Origin: Paenibacillus daejeonensis DSM 15491
GTDB taxonomy: Bacteria > Bacillota > Bacilli > Paenibacillales > Paenibacillaceae
Assembly (NCBI RefSeq): GCF_000378385.1
Contig: NZ_KB899665.1
Coordinates: forward strand, 292,752 to 356,751
Direction of reading: 5' to 3'
DNA length: 64,000 nt
Shown here: in pieces, positions 38,165-53,440 of the stretch
How positions within the stretch are numbered: the stretch's first letter is position 1
How the letters are laid out: every line of letters starts with the position of its first letter
Translations under genes and position numbers: made by a program
Notes under the pieces: generated by a model
The model's input: the letters and a program-made list of their open reading frames with translations, nothing else
Told to the model about the DNA's origin: nothing
Database searches by the model: none

Positions 38165-38342
38165 CCGCCTCAGCTCCTTTTTAGGTAATACGTGGGAGAG
38201 GCGCTAAATGTTTCGGCGTTGGAGCCTAAATGGCGCAAGATGCAATAAAGCAGTTTTTTTTACGACAATTGGCCCATTCGACCACAAAAGTACGGTTTCA
38301 TACTATACTTATGGGAGTAGATTCCAGAAGGGGGACGGCCAG

Positions 38343-39383
38343 ATGGACACGGAGCTCAAGTACCTATTTGCACCCTACGAGTTGAAGGGCCATCACATCA
38401 AAAACCGCATCGTCATGGCGCCGATGGAGCTGTTGATTAAGAAGACAAGGGATGGATTCGTGAATGAGGATCACTTGAATCATTACGGAGAGCGAGCGAG
38501 AAGCGGGATTGGCCTGGTCATTATCGAAGCAACCAGCGTCGATCCGCGCAGCATGAATGTCGTGTCCCAGCTCGGTGCCTGGTCGGATGAGCACATCCCG
38601 GGGTTAAGACGACTTGCCGCAGCGTGCCAACGGTATGGCGCCAAGGTGCTGCTGCAGCTGCAGCACCTGGGTGTCCGCATGAAGCAGGATCCGATCGGCC
38701 CATCCGCGTATCAGGACAAGTCGGTGACAGCGCGAGAGATGAAGCTAGACGAACTGAAGGCGCTGCAAGAGGCATATGTGTCGGCTATCCGGCGTGCAGA
38801 ATTAGCTGGCTTCGATGGGGTTGAGCTTCATGGGGCGCACGGCTATATGCTGAATCAGTTTTCTTCGCCGAATGTGAATCAGCGAACCGATCGCTACGGC
38901 GGGACGTTAGACAACCGACTGCGTTTTGTCCAGGAGGTCATGGAGCAGGCGCAACCGCTGGTGAATGAACGCTTTATCTTCGGTTACCGCATGGGCTGCA
39001 ATCAGCCTACCCTTGAAGATGGCGTTGCGATGGCCGTAAGGCTGGAGCAGATGGGGATAGATGTGATCCATGTGTCTTCTTGCGGCTACTCTGGTTCGCG
39101 GCCAGAGCTGCCTACGGATTTTCCCTACAATTGGGTCATCTATGGCGGCAGCCGGATCCGGGAGAAGGTAACGGTCCCGGTCATTGTGGTGTATGAGATC
39201 CGGACACCGGAGCGTGCGGACGATATTGTGAAGCAAGGCTATGGAGATTTTGCGGCTATTGGTCGGGAGCTGATTGTGGATGCGGAATGGGCGAGAAAAG
39301 CAGCCGATGGCGATGAGATCCGCTACTGCATTCGCTGCCAGCCCTGCGTCATCTTTAATGGAGAGAACTGTGTGATGCTTTAA
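38343..39383 (+). CDS. NADH:flavin oxidoreductase (old yellow enzyme family)
   Basis: 346-residue FMN enzyme with a TIM-barrel: LFAPYELKGHHIKNRIVMAPM start, GVELHGAHGYMLNQFSSPNVNQRTDRYGG, and IGRELIVDAEWARKA near the end, all family signatures. It ends with CIRCQPCVIFNGENCVML: a cluster of four Cys, like the 4Fe-4S motif of 2,4-dienoyl-CoA reductase-type members, but the usual extra FAD/NAD domains (about 300 residues) are absent. The start at 38343 follows AGAAGGGGG. The substrate is unknown. Confidence 0.88.
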   Translation: MDTELKYLFAPYELKGHHIKNRIVMAPMELLIKKTRDGFVNEDHLNHYGERARSGIGLVIIEATSVDPRSMNVVSQLGAWSDEHIPGLRRLAAACQRYGAKVLLQLQHLGVRMKQDPIGPSAYQDKSVTAREMKLDELKALQEAYVSAIRRAELAGFDGVELHGAHGYMLNQFSSPNVNQRTDRYGGTLDNRLRFVQEVMEQAQPLVNERFIFGYRMGCNQPTLEDGVAMAVRLEQMGIDVIHVSSCGYSGSRPELPTDFPYNWVIYGGSRIREKVTVPVIVVYEIRTPERADDIVKQGYGDFAAIGRELIVDAEWARKAADGDEIRYCIRCQPCVIFNGENCVML

Positions 39384-39478: not shown

Positions 39479-40330
39479 ATGTTTTACGAACCAATGCTGC
39501 TAGAGACTAGCGAGGTAGCTTTTGATGATGAACGCTATGTATTTGAACCCAAGATTGACGGACACCGCCTGGAATTATCAATGATTAATGGCAAGGTTAA
39601 TTTGTATACCCGATTTCGAACGAACGTCACGGAGCGTTATCCGGAGCTGCATCACGTACCTGTGGATAGCCCGCATGTGGTGCTGGATGGGGAGGTGGCT
39701 TACCTTAATCCAGATACCGGGGACTTTGAACTGGAATCTGTGATGCAGCGGTTTCGGCTCACCAAACCAGCTAAGATTCGGGATGGCATGAAGCGGCTGC
39801 CGTTGCGTTATTTTGTGTTTGATATTCTGAGCTACGACGGGGAGGACATTCGTCACTGGCCGCTTCACGAGCGCAAAGCACTGCTGAACGACGTGTTGAC
39901 GGAGAACGCAACGTACAGCCGGGTGATGTCTGTTGAACGAACAGGAAAGGCGTTATTTGATGTCGTGAAGCAACGGAGACTGGAAGGGATTGTGTGCAAA
40001 CGCAAGGACAGCCCGTATCTGGGACGCCGGTCTACCAACTGGCTTAAGGTCATCAACTATCAGTACGCCAATGTAACGATTGTTGGCTACCGCAAATCAC
40101 AATTTGGCTGGCTGGTCCACTTTAATGGCAAACCCGTTGGGGTGGTTGAGCATGGGGTGCCACCGCATCAGAGAGCCAAGTTCTACGAAGCCGCCAAGAA
40201 AATAGTTACGTCTGAGGATCGCAATTATACGTATCTTGAGCCTGTGCTGCAGGCACGAATCCGCTACCTGAATGTTTACAAATCCGGTATGCTGCGTTCG
40301 CCGGAGTTTGTCCGATTTGTGGTGGACTGA
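39479..40330 (+). CDS. ATP-dependent DNA ligase (stand-alone)
   Basis: 283 residues. The adenylation motif EPKIDGHRLE (Lys about 24) is motif I; VVLDGEV, YFVFDIL, LEGIVCKRK and NWLKVINYQY are the following ligase motifs, and an OB-fold domain closes the protein. Such ATP ligases serve NHEJ. It is separate from the polymerase at 9363 and Ku at 10296, and could provide the missing ligase activity. GGGAGGCG is the ribosome site. Confidence 0.9.
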   Translation: MFYEPMLLETSEVAFDDERYVFEPKIDGHRLELSMINGKVNLYTRFRTNVTERYPELHHVPVDSPHVVLDGEVAYLNPDTGDFELESVMQRFRLTKPAKIRDGMKRLPLRYFVFDILSYDGEDIRHWPLHERKALLNDVLTENATYSRVMSVERTGKALFDVVKQRRLEGIVCKRKDSPYLGRRSTNWLKVINYQYANVTIVGYRKSQFGWLVHFNGKPVGVVEHGVPPHQRAKFYEAAKKIVTSEDRNYTYLEPVLQARIRYLNVYKSGMLRSPEFVRFVVD

Positions 40331-40909: not shown

Positions 40910-42052
40910 TTATTGCGCCTGGGCCTGCAGGTCCTGCGACTCGGTCAGAATCGGGTTGCGCTTAACTTTGACCTCCTGGAAGGTAATCTTATTAGAAATA
41001 ATATACTCCGGCGTCTTGCGATGGGCGTGCGATTCCTTGAAGGCTTCACTGCGCGTCCAGTTTTGAAAATCCTCCTTGGTTCTCCAACGCGTCACCACAG
41101 ACACTTCATCATGATCCTTGAGATTTTGCGTCAGCAGCACCTCCAGGCCCAAGAATCCCTCCATGGCTTCCACTTTACCAATGCGGTCAAAACGTTCGAT
41201 CAGCTTGTCGCCGTCCCCTTTGGTAATCTGCGAGATGTTCGTTACAATAATCATCGTTGACTCCTCCTCTATAGGTTGAACTACCGGTATAATGACCGGG
41301 TATTGCTCTTCAAAGCTGACCCTGGCTTCAATCTCATAGACTTCTCTGAGAAAATCAGCCTGGATAACCTCCTTGGGCGCTCCTGAGGCGGCAACTTCGC
41401 CGTCCTTCATGGCTATCAGATGGTCACAGAAAGCTGCAGCATGTTGCAAGTCGTGGAGCACCATCACAATCGTTATGCCGGCTTCCCGATTGAGGCGGGT
41501 CAGGGTGCGCATCACTTCCAACTGGTGAGCGATGTCCATATAGGTTGTCGGCTCATCCAGCAGCAAGATGCCGGTTTTTTGAGCAAGCGCCATGGCGATA
41601 CGCGCCTTCTGTTGTTCGCCGCCCGAGAGGGTGTGGAACATCCGCTCCTCGTGCCGACGGATACTCATGACACGCATCGCCCAGTCGATGATCTGCTCGT
41701 CTTCGTCGCTAAGACGTTGGCGCAAGCCCCGCAGATGCGGTGAACGGCCATAGGCGACGAGTTCGCGGACTGTCAGCTCGGGCAAGCGGTCTTTGGCTTG
41801 CGGCAGCATCGTCAGTGTGCGAGCGTACTGCGAGCGGTTGTATTCCGAGACGGCTTTGCCGTCGACGACAATTTGGCCGCTCTCTGGAGCGATGAGAGTA
41901 GTGATAAGCTTCAGTAGTGTCGATTTGCCCGAACCGTTGGGGCCGATAATGGCAGTTATTTGACCTGTAGGGATCTCGAGCGAGAGCTCGTGCAGCCGGA
42001 AGCGGCCGGCTTCATAGACTAGCGTGTCTGTCTGGATCGCATTCATCGCCAT
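40910..42052 (-). CDS. Iron/heme importer ATPase fused in frame to an IsdG/HmoA-type monooxygenase
   Basis: 380 residues. Residues 1-262 are a FecE/BtuD-like ATPase: Walker [10 protein letters not shown], signature [14 protein letters not shown], Walker [13 protein letters not shown]. Residues 267-380 are an antibiotic-monooxygenase-fold domain with TNISQI (Asn), [14 protein letters not shown] (Trp and His) as in heme-degrading IsdG/HmoA. Before Met at 41252-41254 (complement) the code reads GAGGAGGAG with proper spacing, so the second domain may also be made as a separate 114-aa protein. It would couple heme import to heme cleavage and iron release. Confidence 0.85.
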
Positions 42053-43035
42053 TGACTCCTTTTTCTTAGCAAAATGAGGAAGAACGGTCCGCCAATCACA
42101 GCAAGCAGGATGCCGACCGGCAGTTCAACCGGATCGAACCAAGTGCGGGCGGTCGTATCCGCGAGGACGACTAATGCTGCACCGCCAATCATGGAGAGCG
42201 GCATTAGATAGCGATAATCATCGCCAAGCAATAGTCTGATGGCATGCGGGACAACCAGACCGACGAAGCCGACCAGGCCGGCCACACTGACCGCAGCTCC
42301 AGCCAATAAGGACGAGAGCAGGATGAGCAGCAGGCGCTGGCGTTCCACCTTTTGCCCCAGTAGCTGAGCCGAATCGTCCCCGAGTAGCAACAGATTGGCA
42401 GGCTTGATCGCTAACAGTGCCAAGAGGAGTCCGACAATCGCATAGGGAGCCATAAAGGATAAATGATGCCAGCTGCGACCATTGAGTCCGCCAGACAGCC
42501 AGGGCAGCACAGCTTGCACACGGTCGCTGTAGAGAACCATAATTCCGTTCATGACCGCGCCCAGCATGGCGTTCACGGCAACACCGGCCAGCACGATGCG
42601 TACCGGAGCACTGCCTTTATCCCAAGCAAACGCATAGACAACAAGCGATGCGCCAAAGGCACCCAGAAAAGCCGCGGCAGGCAGCAAATAGCTGAACTGA
42701 GGCAGAACCACCATTGTGATAACGGCAGCCAGACCACCACCCGCGGAAACCCCGATAATTCCGGGATCAGCCAGTGGGTTACGCATGACGCCCTGCAGGA
42801 TGGCTCCCGCAGCCGCCAGAGATGCACCAACCAGCAGACCGATTAGAATGCGGGGCAGCCTCAGATCGAACACGATCGTCGAGTAGTTGGAATGACCGGT
42901 CAATGCCGGCCAGATTTCCTGAAGTGGGACAGATACAGATCCATACATCAAACCATAGAGCATGCTGAGGACCAGCAGGAGAGGGCAGCCCGCGAGCAGC
43001 CAACGTCTGCGGCGAGTGCGTTGAAGTTTATCCAT
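42043..43035 (-). CDS. FecCD/BtuC-type permease
   Basis: 330 residues with about nine to ten helices. [43 protein letters not shown] is the family signature, and [18 protein letters not shown] fits the ATPase-contact region. It forms the channel for heme or ferric siderophore. It overlaps the ATPase gene by 10 bases and follows the binding-protein gene by 10 bases. AAGGAG precedes the ATG on the minus strand. Confidence 0.92.
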
Positions 43036-43045
43036 GATGCTCCTT

Positions 43046-43999
43046 TCAAGGCGTGGCCAATCCCAGCTTGTCGTGCATAAGTGCCAATGCGTCTAAGATG
43101 CGAGTGCCTGGATTCGTACCGAACAGGTCGGGAGGCAACACTTCAATCCTGTCATCTGTAACCGCATCGATCTTGTTCCAGGCCGGGTTGGTCTGCATCT
43201 CGCGTACGAAGCTATCGCGAACCTCGTCCGGCTTGCCGTGGGTCAAGATGAAGATGCGTTCAGGATTGGCCTCTACGATCCGTTCGCTGCTCAGTTGAGC
43301 GTATTGCGGATAGCTCTGGAGACGGGGATAATCCGATGCGATGTTGATTCCGCCCGCAACACTCAAGATATCCCCGCTCAGCGAGTTGGGCAGCGCCGCC
43401 ATGAAGGTGCCGGGTGCGCCGTAGACGAGCAGGACTCTTGGCTGATGATTAGCTGAACGCTGCTGGTATGTGTCCACAGCTTCATTGATCTTCTTGACCC
43501 ATACTTCTGCCTGTTGGTCGCGGTCAATCAATTCACCCAGCAACGTGATTTGCTGCTGAATATCTGCAATGGAGTTGGCACTGGAGAGCAGCATCTGGGA
43601 GCCCAGGCTTTCGATGGTGGGGATATCCTTCGTATTCATAGGGTGGTTGCCAAGGACAACATCCGGCTTCAGTAGACTTATACGCTCCAGATCCACCTCG
43701 TGCGTGCTGCCGACCTGGGAGACATCGAGGGCGGCAGGGTTGCTCGGCACGATATCTGAGGTCGGCCTGCCCACTAACGTACCTCCCAGAGCGTAGATAA
43801 TATCGGTTTCGCCATTGCCCAAGGCAACAATATGCTGGGGCGGCGTGTCGAATACAAGCTGGCGCTGTGCAAAATCGGTAACGATAATTGCATCGGGAGA
43901 ATTCGGATTCACCTGTTCGGGTCCGGCGCCGGCACTGCAACCTGAGACTGCGATGCCGAGCAGTAAGATAGGGACGGAGAGCCATTCAGGCTTCTTCAC
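43046..43999 (-). CDS. Iron/heme-type substrate-binding lipoprotein
   Basis: 317 residues. A hydrophobic N-terminus ending in VSGC is a lipobox. The rest is the FepB/BtuF/IsdE-type two-lobe binding protein: PQHIVALGNGETDIIYALGG, LKPDVVLGNHP, FMAALPNSLSGDIL. First gene of the minus-strand operon, behind Fur-box-like sequences. AAGGAGG precedes the ATG. Ligand (heme or siderophore) cannot be decided; the attached monooxygenase favours heme. Confidence 0.88.
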   Translation of the reverse strand: MKKPEWLSVPILLLGIAVSGCSAGAGPEQVNPNSPDAIIVTDFAQRQLVFDTPPQHIVALGNGETDIIYALGGTLVGRPTSDIVPSNPAALDVSQVGSTHEVDLERISLLKPDVVLGNHPMNTKDIPTIESLGSQMLLSSANSIADIQQQITLLGELIDRDQQAEVWVKKINEAVDTYQQRSANHQPRVLLVYGAPGTFMAALPNSLSGDILSVAGGINIASDYPRLQSYPQYAQLSSERIVEANPERIFILTHGKPDEVRDSFVREMQTNPAWNKIDAVTDDRIEVLPPDLFGTNPGTRILDALALMHDKLGLATP

Positions 44000-44029: not shown

Positions 44030-44071
44030 TGATACTGAGAATCAATTTCAACAACATGATAATCCTTCTCA
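44030..44071 (-). promoter_or_regulatory. Fur-box-like sites upstream of the minus-strand importer
   Basis: TGATACT-G-AGAATCA (44030-44044) matches 11 of 14 positions of the 7-1-7 Fur box TGATAAT-N-ATTATCA, and TGATAAT-C-CTTCTCA (44057-44071) matches 12 of 14. Iron-loaded Fur would repress the operon. Bases 44072-44312 show no clear gene. Confidence 0.65.
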
Positions 44072-44312: not shown

Positions 44313-44356
44313 TGAGAATGATAATCAACAATAATCATTTGATTATCACTATCAAT
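44313..44356 (+). promoter_or_regulatory. Fur-box region of the NEAT genes
   Basis: TGAGAAT-G-ATAATCA (44313-44327) matches 12 of 14 positions of the 7-1-7 box, and overlapping GATAATCA, ATAATCATTTGATTATCA follow up to 44347. The dense array lies about 30 bases before the first NEAT gene and predicts iron repression. Confidence 0.78.
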
Positions 44357-44371
44357 ATTTGGAGGTGAACA

Positions 44372-45442
44372 ATGAAACACAAGCTTAGAAGGGTGTCGCT
44401 GCTGCTGACCGGACTTGTGTTAAGCCTGCTATGGGCGGGATTGATTCATGCCCAGTCCCTGGACAACGGCGTCTATACTGTGGATTACACGGTTCTCAAA
44501 GCAGAGAACGATTCGGCATCGATGGCCAATGATTATTGGGAGAAGCCTGCCAAACTTACCGTGCAGGATGGCAAAGTGACGATCCAGATGACGGTCAACC
44601 ATAGCCAGTGGGTGACAGAATTCAAAGTCCCAGCTGGAGGAAACTATGTGGATACCAAGGTGATCAGCACTGACACAGGCGCTGATAAGCGAACCGTGGA
44701 ATTCACAGCTGCCGGGATTGAGCAACCCATTCTGTCCAAGATTCACGTCACCGTTGCGGAGATTGATTATGATCACGATTATACGATCCGCTTCGCATTC
44801 AAACCGGACAGTCTCAAGCTGATCCAGGCGGCTGAATCGGCAGCGACGCCGGAGCCGCCAGTCGATAAGCCGACGACCGAGAAACCGCCAGCTGCAACGG
44901 AGCAGCCTGCGGCTGCCAAGCCGTCCAAGCCAGCTGCAACTCCGTCCTCAAGCGGGACGCCAGCTGCCAATACAACGGCGAGCTCGCCGCCGCCAGCTGC
45001 TCAACCTACGCCACCCAAGAAGGAGGCAAGCAGCAGCTCACAGGAGCCAGCGGCTGGATCTGGACAGGAAAGCACGAATCCTCCTGAAGCAGAGGCGAGG
45101 GAGATACAAGCTGATGAACCCGTTGTCGAAGCTGAAGAGAACCCTGCCGTTGAGCCTGTGGAAGAACCGGCCGCATCAGAGATCGATAATAGCACGGTTG
45201 ATGAAGAAGCTGCGTCTACTGAGCAGCCTGCCGAGGCAACGGCCGTGACGGCAGACGCTACCGATGAGACGACTGTGGTAGAGGAAGGCCGCCAGCTCTC
45301 TGCAGCTCCGGCTAGCGGAAGCAGTTCGTCAGGTCAAGCCAAGACCTGGCTCATCATCAGCATCGCAGTTGTAGGTGCAGGCATCATTGCTGCGGGAGTT
45401 TTCTTGATTTATCGCCGCCGCGTGGAAGCACGCCAAGCTTAA
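44372..45442 (+). CDS. NEAT-domain heme-binding membrane-anchored protein
   Basis: 356 residues. Signal peptide (1-27), one NEAT domain (about 30-150) with the heme helix SMANDYW and the strand motif YDHDYTIRF (Y-x3-Y, heme-ligating Tyr), then a 170-residue Pro/Ala/Glu/Ser linker, and a C-terminal membrane helix (about 327-347) with YRRRVEARQA. There is no LPxTG or NPQTN sorting motif, so it is anchored by the helix, not by sortase. It would relay heme from the surface to the importer. GGAGG precedes the ATG. Confidence 0.88.
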   Translation: MKHKLRRVSLLLTGLVLSLLWAGLIHAQSLDNGVYTVDYTVLKAENDSASMANDYWEKPAKLTVQDGKVTIQMTVNHSQWVTEFKVPAGGNYVDTKVISTDTGADKRTVEFTAAGIEQPILSKIHVTVAEIDYDHDYTIRFAFKPDSLKLIQAAESAATPEPPVDKPTTEKPPAATEQPAAAKPSKPAATPSSSGTPAANTTASSPPPAAQPTPPKKEASSSSQEPAAGSGQESTNPPEAEAREIQADEPVVEAEENPAVEPVEEPAASEIDNSTVDEEAASTEQPAEATAVTADATDETTVVEEGRQLSAAPASGSSSSGQAKTWLIISIAVVGAGIIAAGVFLIYRRRVEARQA

Positions 45443-45512: not shown

Positions 45513-48500
45513 GTGAGTACTCGCAAGTCTTTTCGCTGGATTGCCCTGCTATCCGCTTGGTTTATTCTGCTCTCATCCGTACATATTTCTACTGCTGCAG
45601 CTGCCCCAGATCCGTCCGAGTTGGAGGATGGGTTGTATAGTGTAAGCTTTAACTCGTACAAACATAATACCAATGAAATTTCCGTGATGAATACGTATAT
45701 CGGTACATCCGCCGTACTGGAAGTCAAAGATGGCGAACAGACGGTGCATGCGTTGCTCCGCTTCAGCAACTGGATTAAAGAGCTGAAGATTGGAACAACC
45801 ATAGAATCGCAAACCGATGTCGTTAATCTGACCGAGGATCTGTGGGTTTTTGATTTTGTAAATACACAAGGTGACACGTACCCGCGTACGTCTCGTATTG
45901 TGAGCTTCCCTGTTGAACAATTGGGCAATTTCAATTACGAAGGCTTCACACACATTGAGGTGCCGCAAGGCCAACTGCCCTTCACTTATAACCACAAGTA
46001 CGATTTGCATTTTCAGGTAGGCGAGCCAGCAGGTCTTGTGGCCAACAGTACAGGAACGCTTGCTGACTTGCAGCAAGCGATTGGCGGTGCAGAGCAGGTG
46101 CTGGACGCTGGCAAACGGCATGCTGATTTTGTCGCAAGCAGAGCGATCGATCTTACCGATTCCATTACGTATGCCAAGGCTATTGCTGCATTGCCATCGG
46201 CTACTCCATTGCAAATAACGGCAGCTCAGCATTATCTGGAACAGGATGCGGCTGTATTTGCCGACTTGTACCCAGGTGAGCAAACAGCGGACATCACTGT
46301 CCAGGCCGTCCATGCGACGGATGATTATCGCTCTTCTGCAATGTCTGGTTATCTGGCCAGTCCCAAAGCAGTAACGAGTGCTGCCGGAACGGCTGTTCAA
46401 TTACTAATTAATGATCACAAGACAGTGACGAGCTTCATGGTGGAGCAGAACGGAGAATTGGTGGAGGCAACGAACGTGTCGGTGAATGCTGATGCGAATA
46501 CGCGCCTAATCGAATTCCCGGTCTCAAGTCTCGATGCTGTCATTAATGCACGTGTTCATGTGTCAACTACATTGGATAATGGCCAGCCTTACGAGATGGA
46601 TCATAATATTCGCTTGATTTTCAACCGTGCATTGAACCGTGTCGAGTTGCAATCGGAAGTGACTGCAGCCCAACAATTGCATAACCAAGCTGTGGTCGGA
46701 ACAGAGGTTGGCCAATATCCGCAGGAAGCCACAACAGCTCTGCAAGCCGCCATTAATCAGGCTAAAGTGGATGGAAGTATGCTATCTACCCAGGAAAAAG
46801 TAAACGCAGCCTTGGCAAATCTGAGGACGGCAGTAGAAGCATTCAAGAGTGCTGTTGTTGCAGCACCAGGTAACGGTCAAGGCACCCCGATCTCGATTCA
46901 GGTCGTGCATGGAACCGATGATTACCGCTCTTCGTCGATGGCCAGCTATCTGCTGAATCCTAGAGCTGTGACAGAAAACGGCGAGACATCCGTTCAACTG
47001 ACAGTTAAGGATCATACCATTGTAACCAGCTTCAAAGTGCAACAAGCAGGCGAGCTGAAAGAAGCGGCTACCGTATCTGTTGATACAGAAACGAATACTC
47101 GCTTGGTCACATTCCCGGTTTCCAGCCTGGATGCCGTAGTCCAAGCACGCGTTCATATCTCGACGTCGATGCCGAACGGCAGCCCGTATGAAGTGGATCA
47201 TGACATTCGTCTGATCTTCAACCGTGCGCTGGATCGTGCTGACCTGCAAGCGGAAGTCACGTCTGCACAAAAGCTTCATGACGAAGCAGTTGTCGGAACG
47301 GCAGCTGGACAATATCCGGCAGCGGCCAAGACGGCACTACTGACAGCAATCAACAAGGCAAAAGTGGACGGCAGTATGCTCTCCACCCAAGCGAAAGTAA
47401 ACACAGCTTTGACGGAGCTGAAAGCAGCAGTCAACACGTTCAAAGGGGCGGTTGTCGCTCCTGGAAACGGCGGTGGTCCAGTTACGCCTCCACCGGGTGG
47501 ATTGGCTGATGGGAAATACTCAATTAATCTCCGTGTTCTGAAAAATGGAACTTCTGAAACATCTATCATGAATGGATATGTGTATCATCCAGCAAGGCTC
47601 CTTGTCCAAAATGGAGTTAAAACCATTGTGATGAATCTGGGTGTAAGTGATAAAATCACTTCTTTTTCGGTAAGTGGTTCATCCATTTCAGTTGTAGAAA
47701 CGAATGCAAATGAAAATAGCCGTCGAGTCAGTTTTAATGTATCGGATCTCACACAAAAATTGGATGGAGAAGTCCGAATAGATTGGAGCGAAATCAATTA
47801 TCATTATACGTATAAAATTCAGTTGGAATTTGGAAATCCAATAGAAGTTGATGAATGGCCTGTTGAAAATCCGCCTAATCCCAATCCTCCAACGGAAACA
47901 CCTAACCCTAATCCACCAGCAACCGGTGGTAACGGTACGGGTGGAGGTGGAACGACGCCAGGCGAAGAGGGAGAGCAGGGCACCGAGCCAGGTACAGACA
48001 ACGGCTCGGAGAATCCATCGCAGCCTGGTAGTAACGGGAATGGTGGCGGAACCGAAACACCTACGCCGCCGGCCGTTACATTCACGGACACTGCAACGCA
48101 CTGGGCGAACCAATCCATTGCTCGTGCAACGGAGCTGGGAATCGTGAATGGTTATGCTGACGGCACATTTAAGCCGAATGCCACAGTGAACCGTGCCGAG
48201 TTCGCAGCCATCATCAGCCGTGCGTTCCAACTGGATCTGAACGCACCAGCCTCATCCTTCAGCGATTGGAATGGCGTACAGGCCTGGGCTAAGCCATTCA
48301 TCGAGCAAGCGGTCGCCGCAGGTATCATCAACGGCTACGAGGATGGTTCATTCCGTCCAACACAGCAGGTGAGCCGTACGGAGATCGCAGTGATGATCGT
48401 CCGTGCGCTGGGGCTGCACACAAATAGCGAGGCGGAGCTAAGCTTCCAGGATGCCGGACAAATCCCGGCTTACGCCAAGCCATACATCGCAGCGGCTGTG

Positions 48501-48635
48501 GAGCATGGTCTGATTGAAGGACTGGGCAACAATACCTTTGGCGCTCAGGCACCAGCTACCCGCGCCCAAGCGATCACACTGATTCTGCGCGCACTGGATT
48601 ACCTGGCCGCATCGCAGAATGGTCAGGCCGCTTAA
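45513..48635 (+). CDS. Four-NEAT, three-SLH surface heme-binding protein
   Basis: 1040 residues. Signal peptide (1-33); NEAT1 about 36-171; helical region; NEAT2 about 257-372; helical linker; NEAT3 about 459-575; helical linker; NEAT4 about 663-775; Pro/Gly linker; three SLH modules from 855 to the end that bind the cell wall. NEAT1 (YNHKY) and NEAT4 (YHYTY) keep the heme Y-x3-Y. NEAT2 and NEAT3 are near-duplicates with Y-x3-H (YEMDH at 359, YEVDH at 559). The start is GTG 45513 with AAAGGAG. It would capture heme or hemoproteins at the cell surface. Confidence 0.92.
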   Translation: MSTRKSFRWIALLSAWFILLSSVHISTAAAAPDPSELEDGLYSVSFNSYKHNTNEISVMNTYIGTSAVLEVKDGEQTVHALLRFSNWIKELKIGTTIESQTDVVNLTEDLWVFDFVNTQGDTYPRTSRIVSFPVEQLGNFNYEGFTHIEVPQGQLPFTYNHKYDLHFQVGEPAGLVANSTGTLADLQQAIGGAEQVLDAGKRHADFVASRAIDLTDSITYAKAIAALPSATPLQITAAQHYLEQDAAVFADLYPGEQTADITVQAVHATDDYRSSAMSGYLASPKAVTSAAGTAVQLLINDHKTVTSFMVEQNGELVEATNVSVNADANTRLIEFPVSSLDAVINARVHVSTTLDNGQPYEMDHNIRLIFNRALNRVELQSEVTAAQQLHNQAVVGTEVGQYPQEATTALQAAINQAKVDGSMLSTQEKVNAALANLRTAVEAFKSAVVAAPGNGQGTPISIQVVHGTDDYRSSSMASYLLNPRAVTENGETSVQLTVKDHTIVTSFKVQQAGELKEAATVSVDTETNTRLVTFPVSSLDAVVQARVHISTSMPNGSPYEVDHDIRLIFNRALDRADLQAEVTSAQKLHDEAVVGTAAGQYPAAAKTALLTAINKAKVDGSMLSTQAKVNTALTELKAAVNTFKGAVVAPGNGGGPVTPPPGGLADGKYSINLRVLKNGTSETSIMNGYVYHPARLLVQNGVKTIVMNLGVSDKITSFSVSGSSISVVETNANENSRRVSFNVSDLTQKLDGEVRIDWSEINYHYTYKIQLEFGNPIEVDEWPVENPPNPNPPTETPNPNPPATGGNGTGGGGTTPGEEGEQGTEPGTDNGSENPSQPGSNGNGGGTETPTPPAVTFTDTATHWANQSIARATELGIVNGYADGTFKPNATVNRAEFAAIISRAFQLDLNAPASSFSDWNGVQAWAKPFIEQAVAAGIINGYEDGSFRPTQQVSRTEIAVMIVRALGLHTNSEAELSFQDAGQIPAYAKPYIAAAVEHGLIEGLGNNTFGAQAPATRAQAITLILRALDYLAASQNGQAA

Positions 48636-48972: not shown

Positions 48973-49797
48973 TTAAGCAACCTGGAGTTGTTCGTAATAC
49001 TTCTTCTCGGCCATGTGCGGAGTGAGGTAGCCAATGGATGAATGGATTCGAATCCGGTTGTACTCAAGCGTAATGTATGAGCGGATTGCACGGTAGGCCT
49101 GTTGGCGTGTCTGAAACGTCGTCAAATACACGAGTTCCTTTTTGAAGACGCTATGGAACGCTTCAATACAGGCGTTATCGTAGCAATTCCCTTTGCGACT
49201 CATACTTCCAACCATCCCATAACTCTCTAAGCGTTTACGGTAATCCTTGGCGGCGTACTGAGAGCCTCGATCGGAATGGTGAATGAGTCCTGCCTTTGGC
49301 TGCTGCAGTTTGTAGGCCATGTCGAGGGCGTCCAGAGCAAGTTCCTGGGTCATCCGGCTGCCCATTGAATAGCCTACAATTTTGCGAGAGTACAGGTCCA
49401 TCACGCTCGCCAAATACACCCACCCTTGCTGAGTGGCGACATAGGTAATGTCGGAAACCCACGTATGGTTAGGGGCTTCAACCTTGAACTGACGATCCAC
49501 CAAATTGGGGAACACCGGTTGGTTATGCTTGGAGTTGGTGGTTGCCTTGTACTTCTTCACCACACGAGAGACCAACCCCATCTCTTTCATGAACTTCGCT
49601 ACCGTCTTAGGGGAGATCACCCAGCCCTCTTCGCGCAGCTTAGCCGTGATCTTCAGGCTCCCGTAACGCTGCTTAAAGCCGTTAAAATGATGCTGGATTC
49701 GCTTCTTCAGCTTTGCTTGGCGCTTGTGTGTATCACTGGGTTTGCGGTGCACCCAGCGGTAGTAACCGCTTCTAGATACCTTCATCAACTGGCACAT
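48973..49797 (-). CDS. IS3-family transposase OrfB
   Basis: 274 residues as an independent frame; the upstream -1 frame is open back to the slippery site, so the working product is an OrfAB fusion. DDE catalytic residues are in WVSDITY, HHSDRGSQY and CIEAFHSVFKKE. SRSGYYRW and HTWVSD are usual for IS3-family integrase cores. It would catalyse cut and circle formation of the IS. Confidence 0.94.
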   Translation of the reverse strand: MCQLMKVSRSGYYRWVHRKPSDTHKRQAKLKKRIQHHFNGFKQRYGSLKITAKLREEGWVISPKTVAKFMKEMGLVSRVVKKYKATTNSKHNQPVFPNLVDRQFKVEAPNHTWVSDITYVATQQGWVYLASVMDLYSRKIVGYSMGSRMTQELALDALDMAYKLQQPKAGLIHHSDRGSQYAAKDYRKRLESYGMVGSMSRKGNCYDNACIEAFHSVFKKELVYLTTFQTRQQAYRAIRSYITLEYNRIRIHSSIGYLTPHMAEKKYYEQLQVA

Positions 49798-50126: not shown

Positions 50127-50228
50127 AAGTCACCTCAACCTGATCGAATTCTTTATTCTATATTATCAGGTCGCTCTTACATCGTGTCTAAATTTCAGTT
50201 TACATGCAGCGTGCCGTGTCCAAGCGCC

Positions 50229-50646
50229 GCAAGTAAAGAAACTTTCGCTGGAGCGGCGGTGTGCGCCGAGTTGTGCGCTCCAAGGCAAGAAACTTTCGCT
50301 GTAGCAGCAGTATGCGCCGAGTTGTGCGCTCCAAGGCAAGAAACTTTCGTTGCAGCAGCAGTATGCGCCGAGTTGTGCGCTCTAAGGCAAGAAACTTTCG
50401 CTGTAGCAGCAGTATGCGCCGAGTTGTGCGCTCCAAGGAAAAAAACTTTCGCTGCAGCAGCAGTATGCGCCGAGTTGTGCGTTCCAAGGCAAGAAACTTT
50501 CGCTGGAGCGGCGGTGTGCGCCGAGTTGTGCGCTCCCAAGGCAAGAAACTTTCGCTGCAGCGGCAGTATGCGCCGAGTTGTGCGCTCCAAGGCAAGAAAC
50601 TTTCGCTGGAGCGGCGGTGTGCGCCGAGTTGTGCGCTCCAAGCCCA
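50229..50646 (+). repeat. 51-bp tandem repeat array, eight copies
   Basis: Eight units built on AAGAAACTTTCGCTG, then GAGCGGCGG or CAGCAGCAG, then GTGCGCCGAGTTGTGCGC and TCCAAGGC. The landmark GAAACTTTCG recurs at 50238, 50289, 50340, 50391, 50442 (as AAAAACTTTC), 50493, 50545 and 50596; steps are 51 except one 52. In the GGAGCGG variants the 5' GGAGCG can pair with CGCTCC at the unit end. The array begins with GCAAGTAAAG like the 52-bp array and ends at CCCAGCAAGTA, 20 bases before the IsdE-like start. It is not coding; the open frames in it follow from the multiple-of-three length. Confidence 0.88.
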
Positions 50647-50666
50647 GCAAGTAGTAAGGAGGACAT

Positions 50667-51638
50667 ATGAGAAAAGATTACCGTACACGGTTCAAGCCCT
50701 TACTCGGGGTCCAGACCCTGCTGCTAATGTTACTGCTCCTGAGCGCTTGCGGATCAGAGCCGCCGCTCAGTAACCAGCCGCAAGACACATCCGACGCGCA
50801 GACCGTCCAGGCCGCTGCACCTGAACCCGAAGCGGAGGCGGAGACCGCGAAGCCTCCGCAATCGGAGGAGCAGCGTATCGTCTCGACCACGGTCGCCATT
50901 ACGGAGATCATGGATGCCCTGGAGCTGGAGCTCGCCGGAATCCCCAAGAGCGTCAAGACTTTGCCCGCACGCTATGACGGCGTGACCGAAGTCGGCAATC
51001 CGATGAGTCCGGACATGGAGCTCGTCAAGTCACTGAAGCCGACAGAAGTGCTGTCGGTGACAACTCTCCAATATGACCTGGAGCCCGTATTCGACAATGT
51101 CAACCTGGACGCGACGTTTCTGGATTTCACATCACTCTCGAACATGCAAGCAGCAATAACGGATCTGGGTGCACGATATGACCGGGAGCAGCAGGCTTCA
51201 GCAATCGTCGAGACCCTCGATGCGCAGGTCGCAGAAATTCGTGAAGCGGCCAGGGGCCGGGAGCAGCCGACCGTGCTCATTCTGTTGGGCGTGCCGGGCA
51301 GCTATCTCGTCGCGACGGAGCATTCTTATATTGGCGACCTGGTGCGACTGCTGGGCGGTGTCAATATTGTGCAGGGCGAGAGTGTGGAATATCTGGCTTC
51401 TAATACGGAGTACCTGCAGCAGGCCAATCCGGACGTCATTCTGCGGGCCGCGCATGGGATGCCGGAAGAGGTCGTGAAGATGTTCGACGCCGAGTTCAAG
51501 ACCAATGACATCTGGAAGCATTTCAAGGCGGTCCAGACTGGCCGCGTCTATGATTTGGAGGAAGCGTTATTCCCGACCACCGCCAACCTCGCTGCCGACC
51601 GCGCGCTTGCCGCGCTGGCAGAGATGCTCTATCCCTAA
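50667..51638 (+). CDS. isdE: Heme-binding lipoprotein, IsdE-like
   Basis: 323 residues. Lipobox LLSAC ends the signal sequence, then a Glu/Ala/Gln-rich linker. The two-lobe binding domain starts IVSTTVAITEIMDALELELAG. Met of EVGNPMSPDME (about 113) and His of RAAHGMP (about 263) correspond to the heme ligands Met and His known in S. aureus IsdE. AAGGAGG precedes the ATG and abuts the repeat array. It leads a three-gene importer operon. Confidence 0.9.
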   Translation: MRKDYRTRFKPLLGVQTLLLMLLLLSACGSEPPLSNQPQDTSDAQTVQAAAPEPEAEAETAKPPQSEEQRIVSTTVAITEIMDALELELAGIPKSVKTLPARYDGVTEVGNPMSPDMELVKSLKPTEVLSVTTLQYDLEPVFDNVNLDATFLDFTSLSNMQAAITDLGARYDREQQASAIVETLDAQVAEIREAARGREQPTVLILLGVPGSYLVATEHSYIGDLVRLLGGVNIVQGESVEYLASNTEYLQQANPDVILRAAHGMPEEVVKMFDAEFKTNDIWKHFKAVQTGRVYDLEEALFPTTANLAADRALAALAEMLYP

Positions 51639-51672
51639 GCGAACGTGATTCTAACTGGTGAGGAACGATAGC

Positions 51673-52662
51673 ATGTCTACTTTACGAACTACATTCAAAT
51701 TTACTGTTGTATTGTTGCTCCTGGCAGCGGCTGTACTCATCTCCATAACGACAGGCAGCATCAAGGTTGGCCTGTGGGAGCTGCTCCAGGGACTCTTCAG
51801 CGGTACCAACGAGCAAGTCGAAGTCATTCGTGATCTTCGTTTACCGCGAATCATCGTCTCCATGCTATCCGGTGCGGCGCTTGCTGTCTCCGGTGTGCTG
51901 CTGCAGGCAGTCATGCGCAACCCGCTGGCCGACGCAGGCGTTATCGGTATTGCCTCGGGCGCGGGATTCGTTTCTCTGTTGCTGGTGACGCTGTTCCCGG
52001 CGATGTTCTTCTGGATGCCGCTGTTCTCCTGCCTGGGCGGGGCGCTCGCTTGCTTCCTGGTCTACTCGCTCTCCTGGCGCTCGGGTCTGCAGCCGATGCG
52101 GCTGATCCTGGTGGGCGTAGCCATTAACGCTACCTTCACCGGATTAGGCCAGTCATTCAATTACCGGGGCAGCTATGCAGTCACCTCGGTCAATCAGGCG
52201 ATCAGCTCGATCTTCACGATGAAGACCTGGACGGATGTGGAGATCCTTGGCATTTATGCATCCATTGGATTAATCCTCTCCTTACTTGTTGGCTCCTGGT
52301 GCAACATGCTGGCCCTCCAGGACAAGACGGCGGGAAATCTCGGTATGCGTGTGACCCAGGCTCGGCTGCTAATCTCAGTCATCGCCGTCCTGCTTGCTTC
52401 GACCGCCACCGCAGTTGGTGGGCTGATTGCTTTTGTCGGACTCCTGGTACCGCACATCGGCCGCCAGATTGTTGGTTCGGATCACTGGTTGTTGATCCCG
52501 TTCTCCGCAATCAGTGGCGCGCTGCTGATACTGGTCGCTGATACCTTGGGCCGAACGATTCTGGCACCCACCGAAATTCCGGCCTCGATCCTGATGACGA
52601 TCATCGGCGGGCCATTTCTTATTTTCATGCTTAGAAGGAGTGATCGGCTTCATGGAGCTTAA
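51673..52662 (+). CDS. isdF: Heme importer permease, IsdF-like
   Basis: 329 residues, FecCD fold: [42 protein letters not shown] signature and LIAFVGLLVPHIGRQIVG ATPase-contact loop. The start at 51673 is 9 bases after GAGG; an in-frame GTG at 51658 is weaker. It pairs with the IsdE-like protein and the ATPase that overlaps its end by 11 bases. Confidence 0.9.
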   Translation: MSTLRTTFKFTVVLLLLAAAVLISITTGSIKVGLWELLQGLFSGTNEQVEVIRDLRLPRIIVSMLSGAALAVSGVLLQAVMRNPLADAGVIGIASGAGFVSLLLVTLFPAMFFWMPLFSCLGGALACFLVYSLSWRSGLQPMRLILVGVAINATFTGLGQSFNYRGSYAVTSVNQAISSIFTMKTWTDVEILGIYASIGLILSLLVGSWCNMLALQDKTAGNLGMRVTQARLLISVIAVLLASTATAVGGLIAFVGLLVPHIGRQIVGSDHWLLIPFSAISGALLILVADTLGRTILAPTEIPASILMTIIGGPFLIFMLRRSDRLHGA

Positions 52663-53440
52663 GGGCCTTACCTTCTCGTACGACGGAAGAATAGATCAGC
52701 TCAAGCAAGTGGAGGACCGCATCCCGACGGGACAGATTACAACGATAATCGGACCGAATGGCAGTGGCAAATCCACGCTGCTTGGCGTCATGGCCCGCAA
52801 TCTCTCTCCGCGCGAGGGAGAAGCCGTGCTGGACGGCAAGGCGATCATAGCTTATGCACCAAAAGAACTCGCCCGTAAACTGGCAGTCGTGCACCAGCAT
52901 AATGATGCGCCACCGGATCTGACAGTCCAGCGCCTTGTCGCCTATGGACGTCTACCGCATCGGCGGATGTGGTCGCAGCAGAGTGAGGAGGATGAAGCGG
53001 CTATCCAATGGGCATTGGAAAGCACCCGGCTGCTCGACAAACGGGAGTCCCGGCTTTGCACACTGTCTGGAGGTGAGCGGCAACGGGCCTGGATTGCCAT
53101 GGCGCTTGCGCAGCGAACGAAGCTGCTTTTTCTCGATGAGCCCACAACGTTTCTGGATATGTATCATCAGATTGAATTGCTGGAGTTAATTCGACACTTA
53201 AATGAGGAGCATGGGATCACCATTGTGATGGTGCTCCATGACATTAATCAGGCACTGCGCTACAGTCATCATCTGATCGTCATGAAGGAGGGGGAGGCAA
53301 GACTCAGCGGAGCGCCGCGGGAAGTTATCACTTCGGCTGCGCTGGCTGACATCTATGGGGTAAAGGCGGTGCTGCGGGAGGATGATCAGGCTGGCCTGGT
53401 CGTACTCCCGCTCGGGACAGCAGAAGCTGCACATATGTAG
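52652..53440 (+). CDS. Heme/iron importer ATPase
   Basis: 262 residues: Walker [10 protein letters not shown], signature TLSGGERQRAWIAM, Walker B LFLDEPTTFLDM, switch VLHDINQAL. The ATG at 52652 follows AAGGAG by 11 bases. Compared with the ATPase at 40910 it has no monooxygenase domain. It closes the second importer operon and converges with nucB two bases later, without a visible terminator. Confidence 0.92.
   Translation: MELKGLTFSYDGRIDQLKQVEDRIPTGQITTIIGPNGSGKSTLLGVMARNLSPREGEAVLDGKAIIAYAPKELARKLAVVHQHNDAPPDLTVQRLVAYGRLPHRRMWSQQSEEDEAAIQWALESTRLLDKRESRLCTLSGGERQRAWIAMALAQRTKLLFLDEPTTFLDMYHQIELLELIRHLNEEHGITIVMVLHDINQALRYSHHLIVMKEGEARLSGAPREVITSAALADIYGVKAVLREDDQAGLVVLPLGTAEAAHM

Follow-up and report, generated by a model that had tools for sequence, protein, structure and literature searches.

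Can a bacterial gene fuse the ATPase of a heme importer to the enzyme that consumes the imported heme, and supply the same enzyme in free form from a second start site within the frame? This question is raised by a locus of Paenibacillus daejeonensis DSM 15491, lying in a stretch of 64,000 nucleotides (hereafter, the window). Little is known of how heme passes from an importer to a ring-opening enzyme without harming the cell, and a natural fusion of an importer ATPase and an enzyme, found in three families with two-gene relatives alongside, provides ready natural controls. The locus also stands out as a candidate for a single bacterial gene that has two start sites and has kept the second through repeated fusion and splitting. 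No description of an ATPase–IsdG fusion was found in the titles and abstract beginnings of open-licence papers, and none by word searches in PMC6018153, PMC12670364, and PMC4143258. The comparison described below leads us to propose, with a probability of about 0.72, that a single gene in an isd-like operon for heme uptake gives rise to two proteins, an ATPase with the monooxygenase attached and a free monooxygenase.

The fused gene and its isd-like neighborhood

The sequence-only reading had described an importer ATPase and an IsdG-like domain as one open frame, with a ribosome-binding sequence directly before an internal Met. Both points were borne out (Table 1), the former also by Pfam and NCBIfam matches; in the fused protein, the Pfam model ABC_tran covers residues 20–170 and ABM residues 267–343, the monooxygenase part passing the ABM cut-off (55.5 versus 23.1 bits) as well as that of the NCBIfam model NF009839 'heme oxygenase' (164.9 versus 115 bits, residues 267–369). 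By its sequence the ATPase part is an importer ATPase of the FecE/FhuC/HmuV type, and genes for a FecCD permease and a binding protein accompany it; since the best curated models, FecE (266.7 of 375 bits) and the heme ATPase NF010068 (225.3 of 261 bits), both stay under their cut-offs, no single named member is claimed. The residues of the Walker A, signature, Walker B, and H-loop motifs fall mostly in invariant columns of a 29-row alignment. The likely start ATG of the ATPase overlaps the permease stop as ATGA, and because the Shine–Dalgarno spacing, judged by eye, is better there, the long product probably has 378 rather than 380 residues; initiation at the internal ATG would give a free product of 114 residues.

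Table 1 Features of the fused gene and its surroundings (positions in the window)
Feature	Positions	Strand	Remarks
Fused gene, ATPase + IsdG-type monooxygenase	40910..42052	-	380 codons + stop, single frame
Monooxygenase part, 114 codons	40913..41254	-	from internal ATG 41254-41252
Linker codons joining both parts	41255..41278	-	model pLDDT about 64
Internal Shine–Dalgarno sequence GAGGAGGAG	41261..41269	-	AGGAGG core ends 8 nt before ATG 41254-41252
ATPase part, residues 1-258	41279..42052	-	likely start ATG 42046-42044
FecCD-type permease	42043..43035	-	Pfam
Binding protein	43046..43999	-	best curated model IsdE, 151.9 bits, below cut-off 298.65
Fur-box-like sequences before importer operon	44030..44071		loose pattern matches
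Fur-box-like sequences before IsdC-like gene	44313..44354		loose pattern matches
IsdC-like NEAT protein	44372..45442	+	185.8 bits, cut-off 155.85
Surface protein, four NEAT + three SLH stretches	45513..48635	+	domain search

The fused gene comes after the permease and binding protein genes, and the genes of the IsdC-like and NEAT/SLH proteins lie across a divergent intergenic region. This region holds five of the window's seven loose matches, some of them overlapping, to the Fur-box pattern; shuffled sequences gave a mean of 2.17 per whole window, with two of 100 shuffles reaching seven. A second importer at 50667–53440 has an ATPase frame without a monooxygenase tail; just before it, at 50195–50654, the sequence is repetitive and holds long open frames on either strand (with a repeated peptide such as ERTTRRTPPLQRKFLAL). 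By eye, an IS3-type transposase-like frame is seen within the isd-like region (48973–49797, minus strand), and two plus-strand frames look like an Old Yellow Enzyme-type oxidoreductase (38208–39383) and an ATP-dependent DNA ligase (39479–40330). As in the isd system of Staphylococcus aureus (IsdEF, IsdG, and IsdI), a heme importer and IsdG enzymes belong to a single uptake pathway. However, the S. aureus isd operon contains no ATPase, IsdF being powered by FhuC according to PMC10147376, whereas here the ATPase is encoded with the importer.

The fused protein was modeled with AlphaFold2 from 29 aligned fused proteins, hand-picked from 56 usable ones (L104, L113, and L142 were left out), giving a mean pLDDT of 82.3 and a pTM of 0.66, with low values in the block 261–270 containing the linker end (64) and in the tail 364–380 (under 50). 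In this monomer model, the strands and helices of the monooxygenase domain follow each other in an order that would fit a ferredoxin-like fold, with block pLDDT values of about 65–82 over residues 271–360. The top Foldseek match is the HmuV chain 4g1u_C (30% identity, TM-score by target 0.86); unlike the fused protein, the matched HmuUV/BhuUV ATPase chains comprise 252–262 residues and leave no room for an enzyme domain. The nearest solved chain by sequence is 8avh, Bacillus cereus IsdG (E 5.1e-41 over domain residues 1–103), which, according to PMC10294844, degrades heme as a free enzyme together with a reductase and has in common with the present domain the active residues Asn6, Trp66, and His76 (8avh/8avi). 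The B. cereus enzyme is a free chain of 107 residues, whereas here the domain also constitutes the C-terminus of an ATPase.

Fused and separate genes among relatives

The genome itself has a single match. In the family sample, relatives of the domain turned up in 88 of 394 genomes (E 1e-18), in the order sample in 75 of 392 (E 1e-21), in the family of G655 in 17 of 80 (E 1e-16), and in the phylum sample in 8 of 398 (E 1e-12). For comparison, 125 orthologous loci were classed by script, comprising 80 of the 101 places in the family sample (E at most 1e-29), 29 places of family f6 newly contributed by the order sample, and 16 of the 17 places in the family of G655. The two parts are fused in frame in 60 of the 125 loci, distributed over three families (f1, f6, and f12) and eleven genus groups (g1, g2, g4, g6, g12, g13, g17, g37, g42, g44, and g55); a sequencing error as the source of the fusion is thus ruled out by the relatives, and an open inter-domain frame at this frequency is more than chance. 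The monooxygenase lies beside the ATPase in another frame in 46 loci and in the same frame behind a stop in seven, including one (L101) whose stop lies behind a degenerate fused copy and two (L110 and L136) with one stop just before the Met. The remaining 12 have no adjacent ATPase, a class that includes a locus at a contig end (L150), one with an unclear start (L160), and one with another ATPase about 900 bases off (L178). The survey for a stop between the domains, suggested by the sequence-only reading, has therefore come out divided: its proposal of a fusion accompanied by a free monooxygenase is backed by the 60 open frames and the conserved internal start, but many relatives carry separate genes, and fusion would not be needed for the system.

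The ATPase is nearly full-length in 57 of the 60 fused loci and truncated at its start in three (L073, L074, and L112); two loci that are not fused (L130 and L145) also have a start-truncated ATPase, and L145 lacks the monooxygenase start, too. Among the records with species names, 10 of 11 loci are open upstream, two of the ten (L061 and L069) over a truncated ATPase; the open ones include Paenibacillus endophyticus, P. cellulosilyticus, P. eucommiae, and Cohnella laeviribosi, and the upstream frame is not open in Marinococcus halophilus (L070). In the class survey, frames of at least 380 were found for the window, G655, and G952 only, among the matches listed. On plasmids, the best 12 of 3,446 records are ATPase-only matches, and six of the 3,446 have one place covering at least 80% of the query. 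Two genomes with a fused locus (G361 and G378) carry a second monooxygenase locus (L094 and L117), situated before an IsdC gene, with no importer genes found upstream.

On a quick maximum-likelihood tree of 122 of the 125 loci, with 39 of 119 inner branches under 80 and no power to tell gain from loss of the fusion, the fused and separate states are connected by at least seven changes when ATPase-less loci are left uncounted, and the fused state and all others by 11, nine of them forced by well-supported branches. These repeated changes agree with a reading in which the fusion arose by neutral accident: the stop codon of the ATPase was lost, the tail is tolerated, and function resides in the free enzyme and the ATPase alone. 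The two-gene relatives, moreover, do well, and two loci within mostly fused groups, L109 and L136, seem to have gone back to separate genes. The linker itself speaks differently. The frame is open throughout the 17-row clade of the window, in which L073, L074, and L112 account for the three start-truncated ATPases, and in a 42-row clade, which also contains L101 with its stop behind the degenerate domain and the out-of-frame L109, no linker stop is seen against at least 4.8 stop-making changes expected from the substitutions observed (P about 0.008). This deficit favors, with modest strength, upkeep of the open linker. Since fusions also occur in three families, and since even the degenerate fused domain of two genomes described below still has a dN/dS of 0.25, we regard a merely neutral fusion as unlikely, though it is the competitor to be taken most seriously.

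Degenerate fused copies and possible roles of the fused domain

Two genomes (L093 in G082 and L101 in G066) have an ATPase whose fused monooxygenase is degenerate; behind it stands an intact free copy that has a ribosome-binding site of its own. The degenerate copies have lost Met1, have Asp in place of Asn6 and Asp or Asn in place of His76, and retain Trp66. At 32 positions, at least 97% of the 121 live domains agree; both copies keep 12 of these, and both are changed at 18. A comparison of G066 with G082 gives a dN/dS of 0.246 for the degenerate domain, as against 0.137 for the ATPase and 0.074 for the free enzyme. Among 37 genomes of that genus, only G066 and G082 score as ATPase plus degenerate copy (E 8.6e-69 and 1.1e-43), the other matches, judged by score, being at 1.4e-12 or weaker. 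With Met, Asn, and His gone from a fused copy whose free counterpart is intact, the part played by the fused domain may be docking or regulation and not catalysis. These copies argue, as far as their sequences go, against catalysis at the transporter as its sole role, and it is mainly because of them that simple channeling is not accepted here.

The fused domain might accordingly be read as a heme sensor or brake of the ATPase, or as a docking half for the free enzyme, and not as a working enzyme. Besides the two degenerate copies, with their dN/dS of 0.25, this reading can draw on the MetN-type ATPases, in which an importer ATPase is likewise followed by a further domain. The C-terminal domain of MetN-type ATPases senses the substrate and regulates, and is not an enzyme. 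MetN chains rank high in the Foldseek search, with alignments of 370–387 columns, gaps included, but at rmsd values of 16.6–17.9, indicating that their domain arrangement is unlike that of the fused protein. Furthermore, Asn6, Trp66, and His76 are intact in all 121 full monooxygenase domains, fused ones included, whereas degeneration is confined to two genomes, in both of which 18 of the 32 conserved positions have been lost. A purely sensing or docking role of the fused domain in general is, in our judgment, doubtful. More speculatively still, the fused domain could be a docking or heme-sensing half that recruits the free enzyme of the same gene into a mixed dimer at the importer exit, where heme would be handed over or cut on arrival, the two start sites on one mRNA setting the ratio of tethered to free enzyme; we offer this elaboration only tentatively.

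The internal start and the two proposed products

The proposal of two proteins from one gene depends on the internal start. An ATG stands at the Met of the domain in all 60 fused frames, and in 106 of the first 109 loci such an ATG coincides with alignment of the domain from its first residue. In this first set, whose loci are related and hence not independent, the fused loci have GGAGG upstream in 43 cases out of 46 (42 at a distance of exactly 8 nt, one at 12), the other-frame loci in 42 of 43, those with a stop in the same frame in 6 of 7, and those without an ATPase in 9 of 10. The remaining in-frame ATGs of the fused frames have it in only 3 of 536 cases, and windows at large in 627 of 30,896. 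Over all fused loci the count is 43 of 60: the 14 fused loci of g55 have AAGGGAG instead (−9.0 kcal/mol), with no codon bias, and L073, L140, and L148 also lack GGAGG.

The codons underlying the site are biased in the same direction. Glu at codon −4 is encoded by GAG in 43 of 43 cases (background, 0.49), and the Lys, Glu, or Gln codon at −5 ends in G in 41 of 41 (background, 0.43 for Lys and 0.59 for Gln). Among 28 ten-codon linkers of the 42-row clade, the third positions of these two core codons show no change, versus 7, 8, 0, 9, 7, 4, 7, and 10 changes at the other eight, one codon outside the Shine–Dalgarno core thus being likewise unchanged. When each linker peptide was recoded by random synonymous choice, an equally strong site arose with a median P of 0.23; 9 of 43 distinct linkers fell under 0.1 and 35 under 0.5, and Fisher's combination gave about 9e-5 over linkers that are not independent. 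This peptide control weakens the codon argument for single loci. With its conserved start codon and Shine–Dalgarno sequence, weaker in g55 and the three other loci, the internal start of the fused gene is nevertheless well supported by the comparison.

Five loci (L090, L091, L092, L098, and L108) bear on the use of this start, having the order binding protein, permease, monooxygenase, and IsdC with no ATPase match between; with no ATPase before it, the monooxygenase would hardly be made there except from its own start. Residues resembling the fusion linker still precede that start in all of them but L108. The importer in these five loci may be powered by another ATPase, as IsdF is by FhuC in S. 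aureus. The internal site could, on the other hand, be a relic of the two-gene state, with the fusion as the only product, and relatives with separate genes and the same site are indeed common; its unchanged position throughout the 42-row clade, the absence of third-position changes in the two core codons, and the retention of GGAGG in 43 of 46 fused loci make a fusion-only gene improbable. Cleavage of the fusion by a protease, leaving the cell with only the short enzyme and a cut ATPase, would fit a linker that is short and modeled with low confidence, but nothing else points to it and we consider it very improbable.

Under the two-protein reading, initiation at the ATPase start would yield the ATPase with the monooxygenase attached, and, with no stop between the domains, every complete ATPase chain of this gene is necessarily fused. 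Ribosomes loading at the conserved internal Shine–Dalgarno sequence would in turn produce the free 114-residue monooxygenase. At the importer's inner mouth, the fused copy may provide enzyme or a site to which the free enzyme docks, and the free enzyme may deal with heme in the cytosol. The arrangement probably arose from a coupled gene pair in which the ATPase stop was lost more than once and the old start was kept. A parallel is Cas11b, a small protein that is translated in frame from an internal Met in cas8b and corresponds to its C-terminal part (PMC11899642); Cas11b is an archaeal CRISPR subunit shown by experiment, whereas the short product here is predicted from conservation. Over 56 fused loci, the mean Shine–Dalgarno energy is −11.0 kcal/mol for the ATPase's own site versus −10.5 kcal/mol for the internal one. 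In the window the order is reversed, with −12.1 kcal/mol for the internal site versus −8.8 kcal/mol; the expectation that the internal site generally outdoes the ATPase's own was rejected, being true in just 20 of the 56 loci.
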